A DNA stretch of 64,000 nt, from positions 716,001 to 780,000 of the forward strand of contig NZ_CP132910.1 of assembly GCF_030846775.1 (NCBI RefSeq), written 5' to 3'. Source of the stretch: Geothrix sp. 21YS21S-2 (lineage in GTDB: Bacteria; Acidobacteriota; Holophagae; Holophagales; Holophagaceae). The position numbers and the translations under genes were made by a program. A model generated the notes under the pieces. That model searched no databases. It was given only the letters and a program-made list of their open reading frames with translations, and was not told where the DNA came from. This document shows, piece by piece, positions 7,534 through 60,780 of the stretch. Numbering within the stretch: position 1 is the stretch's first letter; each line of letters starts with the position of its first letter.

Positions 7534-7547
7534 TCTCCTGCCGCATT

Positions 7548-7699
7548 TTTCCCCAGCGCCTCTGTGAACCCTCTGCGCCCCAGCGTTTAGTTCTTTTCCA
7601 TGAATCACTGACTGCTTGGGTGAGCCCCGATCGTCCGGAATCGCACAGAAGGGAATCAAACGCAGAGGCGCGGAGGTTTCGCTGAGGCGCTGGGGGAAA
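7548..7699. repeat. Palindromic repeat, copy 1 (41/42-nt arms, 69-nt loop)
   Basis: Left arm 7548-7588 and right arm 7658-7699 are imperfect reverse complements built from units like CGCCTCTGCG. The left arm begins TTTCCCCAGCGCCTC and the right arm ends GGCGCTGGGGGAAA. It sits between the phoB-like gene and DUF47. Its architecture matches two further copies at 27492 and 60633, although the arm sequence here is the most diverged. Transcribed, it could fold into a long hairpin that blocks read-through. Confidence 0.75.
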
Positions 7700-25699: not shown

Positions 25700-26307
25700 A
25701 AGCCCGGCTTCGTCATCGCACGTGTCCCGGATCTCCAGCCCGGTTCGTTGACGCAGGCAAGCTGCGTCAACGGCAAGCTCTCGCCTTGGGATTCCGCGAA
25801 AGTGTTGGCACACTCCGGCTTCGACGAACGTTTTGGACCAACATGGAAGGGCGGCTCCCCGGGTGGGCCTAGGGCCCTTCGATACGCTTCAAGGGTTGCG
25901 GGGTGGAAGACGGGTCGCGCCGACGCTGGCAAGCAAAGGGCTTTCGCCAGTTCCCATTCCGCGGTCCGGCCAGGGTCCAGGCCGAGTGGATCCCGGTCCG
26001 CACCGCCCATGACCTCCCGCAATGGGCCCGGGCCTTTGCCTCGGGAACCACGGTTCCATGGGAGGCCTGGTTGAGCCGATCAGCGTCGGCGCTCCCCCCT
26101 CTTCCTGCCATGACCCACTCGCAGCGCGCCCCGGAGGCAATAGGCACGTCGGCAGGGCCCCCTGACCCCATGCCCTGGACCGACAGCGAAGCCGGCAAGC
26201 GGAACCCGGCCCCCCGTCTCCTTCGGAATCCAACGAGGCCGGCTTGTCCGGCCGAGTACCCGGGGCGAAGATCCGGGACACGTGCGATTCCATTGCCGGG
26301 CCCCTAG
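25696..26307. mobile_element. Palindromic element A (604 bp, 44-nt terminal inverted repeats, flanked by CTAG)
   Basis: Between CTAG at 25696 and CTAG at 26304 lies a 604-base unit. Its ends, 25700-25743 and 26260-26303, match as reverse complements at 34 of 44 positions without gaps, including a perfect 20-base block (ATCGCACGTGTCCCGGATCT on the left arm). Inside, TTGACGCA/TGCGTCAA (25748-25770) is a perfect hairpin. Open frames exist on both strands but none resembles a known protein and codon use is poor. It looks like a non-autonomous transposable element. The right CTAG is interrupted by the IS630 insertion (its TA is the IS target). Confidence 0.7.
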
Positions 26308-26364
26308 TGTAGGCCGCCAGAAATACCTGTAACGCCAATACAGCTCGTCGCATCCAGGCGGCAG

Positions 26365-27471
26365 GTGAGAACTTTGGCGCAAGTGGGGCGAGTTGATCTA
26401 ACTGTGGAGCAATTCAGACGCCTTGAGGAAATGGCGCGGAGCCGGACCTTGCCTGCGCGCAGCGTCCTGCGGGCCAAGATTGTTCTTCATCGAGCTTCTG
26501 GCGAGTCCTTTCGTGACATCGGCCAGGCTTTGGGCTGTGATCATCGGACTGCTTGGCAATGCCTCAAGCGATGGGAGGAAGCGGGCTTCGATGGCCTCGA
26601 GAGGGAACGCCCAGGTCGAGGCCGGAAGTCTTGGGTGATTGCTTTGAAGGGGCAAGAGGTGCTCCATAAGACGACGCAGGAACAGCCCGTCAATGCCACG
26701 CACTGGAGCCGGGCCTCCATGGCGCAGGCCACCGGGGTGAGCGAGAGCACGGTGGGACGCATTTGGCGCCAGAATGGCCTCAAGCCGCACCGCACCGTTG
26801 GTTTCAAGTTAAGCAACGATCCTCATTTCGAAGAGAAGTTGGTGGACATCGTGGCCCTGTATCTGGACCCTCCGGAGCATGCCATCGTGCTGAGCGTAGA
26901 TGAGAAGAGCCAGATTCAGGCCCTGGACCGGACTCAGCCTGGCCTACCGATGAAGAAGGGTCGCTGCGGCACCATGACGCACGACTACAAGCGCAATGGA
27001 ACGACCACCCTCTTTGCGGCCATGAACACGCTGGATGGTACGGTGATCTCGGCCACGATGCCACGTCATCGCCATGAGGAGTGGCTGAAGTTCCTCAAGC
27101 GGCTTGAGCGGGGTACGTCGAAGCGACTCGCTCTGCACATCATTTGCGACAACTACGCCACCCACAAACATCCGGCGGTCAAAAGCTGGTTGAAAGGCCA
27201 TTCGAGGGTCCACGTTCACTTCACCCCCAGCAGTTCATCGTGGTTGAACATGGTGGAGCGATTTTTCCGGGACATCACGGAGAACCGCATCCGAAGGGGT
27301 ATTTTCAGATCCGTCCCGGAACTCGAAGCAGCGATCCACACCTATATCGCGAGACACAATGCCGCTCCGAAACCATTTGTTTGGACCGCGTCCGCGAACG
27401 ATATCCTCGCCAAGGTGACACGAGCACGGCAGGCCCTCGCGGCCATTCGGACGGCCTCTGCCAAGGGTTGA
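26365..27471 (+). CDS. IS630-family transposase (DDE type)
   Basis: A 368-residue, apparently intact transposase. The N-terminal helix-turn-helix region (ESFRDIGQALGCDHRTAWQCLKRW) is followed by a second DNA-binding stretch with GVSESTVGRIWRQNGLKP. The catalytic acids are in VLSVDEKSQIQALDR, IICDNYATHKHP and SSWLNMVERFFRDITENR, the D-D-E pattern of the family. The GTG at 26365 gives MRTLAQVG as N-terminus; later starts are possible because no clear ribosome site is present. With intact ends and catalytic residues, the element may still be active. Confidence 0.9.
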   Translation: MRTLAQVGRVDLTVEQFRRLEEMARSRTLPARSVLRAKIVLHRASGESFRDIGQALGCDHRTAWQCLKRWEEAGFDGLERERPGRGRKSWVIALKGQEVLHKTTQEQPVNATHWSRASMAQATGVSESTVGRIWRQNGLKPHRTVGFKLSNDPHFEEKLVDIVALYLDPPEHAIVLSVDEKSQIQALDRTQPGLPMKKGRCGTMTHDYKRNGTTTLFAAMNTLDGTVISATMPRHRHEEWLKFLKRLERGTSKRLALHIICDNYATHKHPAVKSWLKGHSRVHVHFTPSSSSWLNMVERFFRDITENRIRRGIFRSVPELEAAIHTYIARHNAAPKPFVWTASANDILAKVTRARQALAAIRTASAKG

Positions 27472-27491
27472 CGGCGAACCTGCCTTTTTCT

Positions 27492-27631
27492 TTTCCTCGG
27501 TATCCTCGGCCTCCTCGGCGCCTCGGCGATGGCTTTCTCAAGTATCAGTCGGAGCAAAGATTACATGCGCCGAAGCACCCGTCGAAAAGCCCATCGCCGA
27601 GGCGCCGAGGAGGCCGAGGATACCGAGGAAA
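27492..27631. repeat. Palindromic repeat, copy 2 (perfect 41-nt arms, 58-nt loop)
   Basis: Left arm 27492-27532 begins TTTCCTCGGTATCCTCGG and continues with CCTCCTCGG and CGCCTCGGCGATGG; right arm 27591-27631 is its exact reverse complement over all 41 bases. The arm is made of repeated CCTCGG-type units at roughly nine-base spacing. It lies inside the IS630 element, 20 bases after the transposase stop and 60 bases before the GxxExxY start. The perfect arms suggest this copy is young. Related copies are at 7548-7699 and 60633-60780. Confidence 0.88.
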
Positions 27632-27691
27632 GAATTCTGGCCTGAACGTCCCGGCGTGATTGAGCGCACTCCTGACCCGAAGGAGGAAGTC

Positions 27692-28111
27692 ATGGGTCGG
27701 CATTGGGGCGAAGATTGGGGCGACAACTATCCCCATCGAGATATCACCGAAGCCATCATCCTCGCTGCCATCAGGGTGCAGATAGTTCTGGGGCCTGGAC
27801 TCCTGGAAAATGCCTACAAGGCTTGCCTCGCCCATGAACTCAGGTTGGCCGGACACGAGGCCCTACGCGAGGTTCACCTCGACATCACCTACAAGGAATT
27901 GTGCGTCGAGAATGCCTACATCATGGATATCGTGGTGGACCACAAGGTGGTCGTCGAGGCGAAGGCCATTGCGAAGTTTTCGGATGCCGACTTCGCCCAA
28001 CTGAATAGCTGCCTCCACTTTGCAAATTTCGAAGTGGGCCTGCTGATCAATTTTCATAACTGGCCCCTCAAGGACGGGGGCATCAAGCGACTCGTCAACA
28101 CCAAGCCCTGA
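27692..28111 (+). CDS. GxxExxY-family protein (PD-(D/E)XK-nuclease-like)
   Basis: A 139-residue protein of the GxxExxY family. The name motif is seen as GPGLLENAY, followed by KACLAHELRLAG, the strand AYIMDIVVDHKVVVEAKAIAKF (D...E-x-K, the PD-(D/E)XK nuclease core) and VGLLINFHNWPLKDGGIKRLVN, the family's ending. The ATG at 27692 has a near-perfect AAGGAGG upstream; an in-frame GTG 36 bases earlier is less likely. It lies inside the IS630 inverted repeats, between a palindromic repeat and the right end. The biological role of this family is not established to my knowledge; a nuclease linked to repeats is a reasonable guess. Confidence 0.85.
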   Translation: MGRHWGEDWGDNYPHRDITEAIILAAIRVQIVLGPGLLENAYKACLAHELRLAGHEALREVHLDITYKELCVENAYIMDIVVDHKVVVEAKAIAKFSDADFAQLNSCLHFANFEVGLLINFHNWPLKDGGIKRLVNTKP

Positions 28112-28170
28112 ACTGGACCCGAGGCGAAGGGGGGGGACAAGGTGTTACCTGTTCTTCTGGCGGCCTACAC

Positions 28171-28445
28171 TAGGAGCCTGTCTACGTAATGGGAGGCCCC
28201 GCGACGGCGCCCAGAAGCGTGATTATCGAGCGCAAGGCCCGCAGGAGGATTAGGTCAATCCTTCAAGGGACTTGCACACGATAAGCGCGCTTCTGGGCGC
28301 CGCCCTTCGGGTGATGGCAGCGGGGCCAGCAACTCTGCGTCAGGCTCGTCAACCGCAGTCCCGCTGCGGCTTTCCTCGCCTTCCTTGATTTGCTAGCCCC
28401 GGTGCCATCATCGCGGGGCCTCCTATTGCGTAGACAGGCTCCTAG
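28171..28445. mobile_element. Palindromic element B (267 bp, branched cruciform-like fold, flanked by CTAG)
   Basis: Between CTAG at 28171 and CTAG at 28442 lies a unit in which nearly every base can pair. Outer arms 28173-28205 and 28411-28443 match at 31 of 33 positions. Inside, arms 28206-28228 and 28279-28301 match at 21 of 23 (GGCGCCCAGAAGCG is the perfect core), with AGGATT/AATCCT near the tip. A second inner hairpin uses 28313-28332 and 28390-28409 (18 of 20), capped by CCGCAG/CTGCGG. A short CCC-TTC-GGG hairpin joins them. The result is a multi-way junction. No gene is inside. Its right CTAG supplies the stop codon of the neighbouring oxidoreductase gene. Confidence 0.8.
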
Positions 28446-60632: not shown

Positions 60633-60780
60633 TTTCTCGGCGATCCTCGGCTCCTCGGCGCCTCGGCGATAAGTCCTTTTCCACACCTTGCTGGACTGTT
60701 CACTCATGGCCCAATCCTTGAGGCAGATTCAGCAAAAAGCCTTTCGCCGAGGCGCCGAGAAGCCTAGGATCGCCGAGAAA
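60633..60780. repeat. Palindromic repeat, copy 3 (41/40-nt arms, 67-nt loop)
   Basis: Left arm 60633-60673 begins TTTCTCGGCGATCCTCGG and ends CTCGGCGATAAG; right arm 60741-60780 is its reverse complement with two mismatches and one missing base. It lies between the EmrB-type gene and a decayed toxin gene. Same design and arm length as copies 1 and 2. The unit CTCGGCGCCTCGGCG is shared with copy 2. The rest of the 60549-60876 gap shows no gene. Confidence 0.85.

Follow-up and report, generated by a model that had tools for sequence, protein, structure and literature searches.

Introduction

A transporter IS (tIS) is defined as an insertion sequence (IS) whose ends enclose a passenger gene in addition to one transposase (PMC9330008). 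Among IS630/Tc1-mariner elements, ISY100 is known to duplicate the dinucleotide TA (PMC2170065). In REPtrons the TnpA-REP (RAYT) gene stands beside palindromes, the repetitive extragenic palindromes (REPs) or REPINs, which are also dispersed in the genome (PMC6006769). Here we examine a window of 64,000 nucleotides (nt), positions 716001-780000 of the chromosome of Geothrix sp. 21YS21S-2 (a single-contig genome of 5.25 Mb), in which an IS630-family element of 1,864 bp encloses, in addition to its transposase gene, a long palindrome and a gene of the GxxExxY family. Joint transposition of transposase, palindrome and GxxExxY gene as one unit is documented directly, and the additional DNA probably descends from a palindrome-plus-GxxExxY cassette.

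As in the tIS, the passenger of the window element lies between the ends and moves along with them, which is seen in full-length copies and in an empty site; it is, however, not a resistance gene but a PD-(D/E)XK gene with a palindrome, itself a recurrent cassette. No IS630 with such a passenger was found in the literature searched. With IS630/Tc1-mariner elements such as ISY100 the window element shares the transposase family, TA duplication, the CTAG target and short inverted ends, but it is 1,864 bp long instead of about 1.17 kb and contains a second gene and a palindrome with 41-nt arms. The transposase is usually the sole gene of a simple IS, a trait not required of a tIS; since the GxxExxY gene lies inside the IS630 ends, the window element is classed as a tIS whose transposase is of the IS630 family and not as a simple IS630. 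The system that works most like the cargo is the REPtron, where a nuclease-like gene is likewise found next to palindromes and the hairpins are likewise dispersed. The cargo is nevertheless not a member, because the defining HuH/Y1 enzyme is absent: GxxExxY is of the PD-(D/E)XK type and matches PDDEXK_3 and TIGR04256 only, its arms are long and made of periodic units while REPs are short with a GTAG-type foot, and its cassette is carried by ISs. One uninterrupted Y1 domain, considered as a conceivable mobiliser of the hairpins, is present in the host genome, where the Y1 genes are located away from the cargo. IS200/IS605 and IS607 elements with TnpB are similar in that an accessory nuclease gene is carried by an IS. 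TnpB is an RNA-guided RuvC nuclease, in contrast to GxxExxY with its predicted restriction-endonuclease-like fold.

Structure and transposition of the IS630 composite

The element spans window positions 26307-28170, between two copies of TA. Its features, with those directly adjoining it, are (coordinates, strand, description):

26305-26306, no strand: left TA target-site copy, inside CTAG; each of the seven full copies has TA on either side, the empty site a single TA
26307-26322, plus: left terminal inverted repeat GTGTAGGCCGCCAGAA, perfect over 16 nt against the right repeat
26365-27471, plus: IS630-family transposase gene with DDE_3 domain, GTG start as listed; match to NCBIfam transpos_IS630 (NF033545), E-value 1.7e-77, 260.9 bits, cut-off 100
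27492-27532, plus: left arm of the palindrome, 41 nt, perfect (shuffle comparison, RNA folding)
27533-27590, no strand: loop of the palindrome with a short apical motif, like CGGCGCA..TGCGCCG in sister hairpins (folding)
27591-27631, minus: right arm of the palindrome, 41 nt, perfect (shuffle comparison, RNA folding)
27680-27689, plus: ribosome-binding site AAGGAGGAAG (sequence)
27692-28111, plus: GxxExxY gene, PD-(D/E)XK nuclease superfamily, 139 amino acids (profile matches, alignment, structure model)
28155-28170, minus: right terminal inverted repeat TTCTGGCGGCCTACAC, perfect over 16 nt against the left repeat
28171-28172, no strand: right TA target-site copy, common to the IS and the adjoining miniature inverted-repeat transposable element (MITE) (sequence, copy comparison)
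28173-28442, no strand: adjoining MITE, 270 bp, outside the IS (genome copies)

The structure given in a preliminary description of this DNA is confirmed in all its features. The 16-base perfect terminal repeats with flanking TA are present and score 18, far above the maximum of 11 over 500 shuffles; the match extends to 20 nt if the shared target CCTAG is counted in. The extra DNA within the ends, put there at some 680 bases, measures about 685 nt from the transposase stop to the right terminal repeat. It holds the perfect palindrome that had been described (maximum in shuffled sequence 11; z = -11 when folded as RNA) and an intact GxxExxY gene, whose start is likely the ATG at 27692 behind AAGGAGGAAG; a longer GTG-started frame begins at 27656.

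A search of the host genome with 26305-28173 found seven full-length composites of 99-100% identity, at different sites, each inserted in CTAG, bounded by TA on either side and containing the cargo. The GxxExxY unit is thus not confined to one place; it was confinement to one place that the preliminary description had named as evidence against cargo transport. Six aligned copies differ in only 28 columns, 6 of which represent one deletion, and no full-length copy without cargo was found in the host genome. One of the copies (L002) interrupts a 270-bp MITE, and when its flanks are joined they give an intact MITE with a single TA. The same MITE is uninterrupted beside the window copy of the IS and at other places of the genome. 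Because these uninterrupted sister copies provide an exact empty site, it can be stated that the composite transposes in its entirety, as a single unit. The host has eight complete GxxExxY genes, and each of them is located in an IS copy. Of the two alternatives offered in the preliminary description, the first, a cargo-bearing IS that spreads the GxxExxY gene, is in this way directly shown.

The MITE itself has TA-flanked inverted ends GGAGCCTGTCTACG, and in the window it lies directly against the IS, with one TA common to both. Five near-full copies with 99-100% identity are present in the genome, and a sixth is split by an IS630 copy.

Age of the composite and cargo-free relatives

An eighth copy in the host genome is about 90% identical to the window element; its transposase is broken by deletions and its GxxExxY frame is open. 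A ninth copy is a deletion derivative. The same composite, with 74% DNA identity, is present in a Geothrix metagenome-assembled genome (MAG; L062, also L142), where the palindrome arms have changed together. The diverged eighth copy and the MAG composite show that the pairing of transposase and GxxExxY is old. Between the window and L062 the amino acid identity is 81% for the transposase and 83% for GxxExxY, and the ratio of replacement to silent substitution rates (dN/dS), a rough value with synonymous sites near saturation, is 0.074 and 0.029, respectively. Judged by this comparison, both genes are under purifying selection. Among the young host copies the replacement changes in the GxxExxY gene are at least as many as the silent ones.

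It had also been stated that IS630 elements normally carry only a transposase, and this agrees with the relatives examined: where CTAG ends could be detected, most are 1.12-1.21 kb long (about 1.17 kb) and cargo-free, and among 80 IS630 relatives only L062 has GxxExxY beside the transposase. Three of the cargo-free short relatives, L144, L145 and L063, belong to the same family, and these are placed nearer to the window type than is the second cargo type described below (L146), at a fork of the tree which is weak. In L143, the nearest relative, the element is interrupted ahead of the right end. The suggested comparison of copies with and without the cargo segment gives cargo in all seven full host copies and cargo-free elements elsewhere.

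The GxxExxY protein

The product of the cargo gene matches TIGR04256 GxxExxY (E-value 1.5e-31, 109.2 bits, cut-off 35) and Pfam PDDEXK_3 (E-value 2.9e-31, 108.7 bits, cut-off 22). In an alignment of 64 members G36, Y42, D79 and F121 are invariant and E39, E89 and K91 nearly so. The structure model (predicted local distance difference test score of 90.4) has a restriction-endonuclease-like fold, and this predicted fold together with the conserved D...ExK places the protein in the PD-(D/E)XK superfamily. The best structure match on a second look was SSO0001 (Z 9.5, root mean square deviation (rmsd) 3.5, 101 residues), and 3ijm was matched with Z 8.5 (rmsd 2.9, 98 residues). A sequence search found no relative with a solved structure, and the PADLOC library of defence genes contained no match for the gene. 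The natural reading of the model is that GxxExxY is a putative nuclease. Many bacterial genomes have proteins annotated as GxxExxY, without a known role, and in the literature searched the name occurs in two papers, both times in passing; subscription papers and ISfinder lie outside that coverage and may contain an earlier description.

GxxExxY genes in other insertion sequences and between inverted repeats

A second type of IS630 with GxxExxY is present in the same genus (L146). Between its CTAG ends are long inner inverted repeats and a GxxExxY gene that runs convergently with the transposase gene, and remains related to this type occur in two genomes, G070 and G066. In G066, also of this genus, an IS5-family element (NF033580) with ends CTAGGCTGTGTTCGGAATC contains an arm, GxxExxY and a second arm behind its transposase. 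At least 40 of its copies were scored, and the whole gene is kept in two; about 24 share one deletion of about 200 nt in GxxExxY, nine share larger deletions, and four are without the region between the arms, lost at a 6-nt microhomology. Since IS5 copies have spread after the loss of GxxExxY, the gene is not needed in cis for movement of the IS. In this IS5 element (L242 1443-3017, L245 and about 38 other copies in G066) those that share deletions inside GxxExxY have multiplied, a natural record of cargo loss. In the tree, the IS-borne GxxExxY proteins form a supported clade (100/94) together with one standalone gene (L152).

To examine inverted repeats around GxxExxY genes, the best inverted match between the two gene flanks was scored at deduplicated loci, a score of at least 15 being counted as positive, with fake-gene positions and swapped flank pairs as controls. 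The loci are the best profile matches per genome and not a random sample, so the fractions are approximate: in Acidobacteriota arms were found at 35 of 61 GxxExxY loci (0/227 fake-gene positions, 9/400 swapped flanks) and in other phyla at 14 of 27 (1/100 and 2/400, respectively). The arms are runs of periodic units of 8-9 nt, for example CACAGAGRCACAGAG, ACGCAGATGAACGCAGATG or CCTCGGCG. At one locus (L255 in G067, the same gene as L152) a standalone GxxExxY gene lies between inverted arms and no IS is seen around it. In the plasmid collection there were distant GxxExxY matches only. The idea that each GxxExxY gene has a compact palindrome immediately next to it was considered and rejected, as such a palindrome occurs at few loci and arms on both sides are commoner.

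The hairpin family of the window palindrome occurs at some 35 further places of the host genome, mostly alone, and two of these places are inside the window. When 11 hairpins are aligned, compensation affecting both sides is seen in 20 of 43 pairs; this is no proof of an RNA role, as arms kept alike by copying would give the same result.

Discussion

We consider it probable that the window element is a cargo-bearing IS whose cargo originated from a cassette, a judgement that leaves aside any action of the nuclease on the palindrome. According to this explanation, an IS630 of the Tc1/mariner type has become a transporter IS. The copies and the empty site show that all 1,864 bp are inserted together at the TA of CTAG, palindrome and GxxExxY being copied along. 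Cut-and-paste at the 16-nt ends by the transposase alone would be expected from its family, as for ISY100. The cargo would descend from a palindrome-plus-GxxExxY cassette, a recurrent unit captured several times by unrelated ISs. Repeated capture is shown by the two IS630 types and the IS5 carriers together with the arm statistics, and descent of the window cargo from such a cassette is the history to which they point. The preliminary description had offered as its second alternative that the palindrome-plus-GxxExxY unit is itself mobile and entered the IS. As an account of origin this is supported by arms outside ISs in many genomes, as at L255, and by the other ISs with such a cassette; the entry itself has to be supposed, and in the window the palindrome is upstream of the gene. 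The first alternative being shown directly and the second supported as origin, the two are steps of one history.

The predicted PD-(D/E)XK nuclease might in addition act on palindromes when extruded, or on the DNA at repeats of this kind, and so help the cassette to spread or persist, as TnpA-REP does for REP hairpins. That GxxExxY acts on palindromes or arms in this way is a possibility we hold with some doubt. It is at least as tentative to propose that GxxExxY genes with periodic inverted-repeat arms may constitute an undescribed, REPtron-like class of mobile cassettes, based on a PD-(D/E)XK nuclease, present in several phyla, propagating hairpins and repeatedly picked up by unrelated ISs.

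Several observations weigh against the explanation by a cargo-bearing IS with a cassette origin. About half of the GxxExxY loci have no clear flanking arms, few have a compact hairpin like that of the window, and the window palindrome is beside the gene and not around it. At least 38 of 40 IS5 copies in G066 lost GxxExxY and yet spread. One genome of the same genus (G069, a draft that is 81% complete) has many hairpin matches and no GxxExxY match. A Foldseek search of the structure model gave no match at E <= 0.001, and the match to the Holliday junction resolvase Hjc (Z 7.1, rmsd 3.4, 87 residues) is in the range under Z 8 which may mean just a common arrangement.

The predominance of GxxExxY-deleted IS5 copies would also be expected if the IS630 had taken up neighbouring DNA with a hairpin and a GxxExxY gene which is useless to the IS and persists as small and harmless, and the replacement changes among young host copies, no fewer than the silent ones, point in the same direction. 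However, a dN/dS of 0.03 for GxxExxY between the two composites indicates purifying selection, the eighth copy retains an intact gene despite its broken transposase, and unrelated ISs captured it repeatedly; plain hitchhiking is in our opinion rather unlikely. It is improbable that GxxExxY is a helper of the IS, cutting the emptied donor site or the IS-less allele so that recombination copies the IS back, in the manner proposed for TnpB in IS200/IS605. A nuclease-fold gene was indeed long kept inside the IS, and in all seven young copies, but most GxxExxY genes are outside ISs as far as checked, IS5 copies spread without the gene in cis (an effect in trans would still be compatible with this), and the hairpin matched no known RNA family, its sub-threshold microRNA look-alikes being due to the hairpin shape itself.

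The very stable fold between the two genes and the compensating changes in related hairpins could be attributed to a transcription barrier or terminator unrelated to mobility. The palindrome was considered as an intrinsic terminator, but no T-run was found at it, and the same hairpins are dispersed in the genome and, everted, inside an ISL3 element, which makes such a main function quite improbable. That the cargo serves defence or addiction, so that a cell losing the IS would pay for it, seems very improbable: the cargo is a gene of a nuclease superfamily on a mobile element and there are multiple GxxExxY copies per genome, but there is no PADLOC match, the cargo has no partner gene, and copies of the IS5 carrier have commonly lost the gene.

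On the explanation by a cargo-bearing IS with a captured cassette, very small ISs can turn into stable gene carriers. The arms and the link to ISs would give GxxExxY a testable role, that of a nuclease acting on palindromes and moving or maintaining them. Both IS630 types, the IS5 element and the standalone genes form a natural series for comparing capture and loss of cargo.

Related hairpins in the window and elsewhere

Two more long hairpins, at 7547-7699 and 60633-60780 of the window, are made of the CCTCGGCG/CCCCAGCG unit family, as is the palindrome of the IS. The solo hairpin at 60633 is absent after the orthologous gene in L318, where the downstream DNA is unalignable and gives no clean empty site. 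The hairpin matches of G069 number dozens, several of them at contig ends. At another locus (L045, 1129-1876) an everted palindrome precedes a diverged GxxExxY gene that is truncated; a standalone cassette or an ISL3 copy may have left these remains. An ISL3-family IS with ends GGTTCTTCACGGATTT (L191 1500-3080, host positions about 1409880-1411460), of which the host has five near-identical copies, contains an everted palindrome, which lies about 130 nt inward of the left end.
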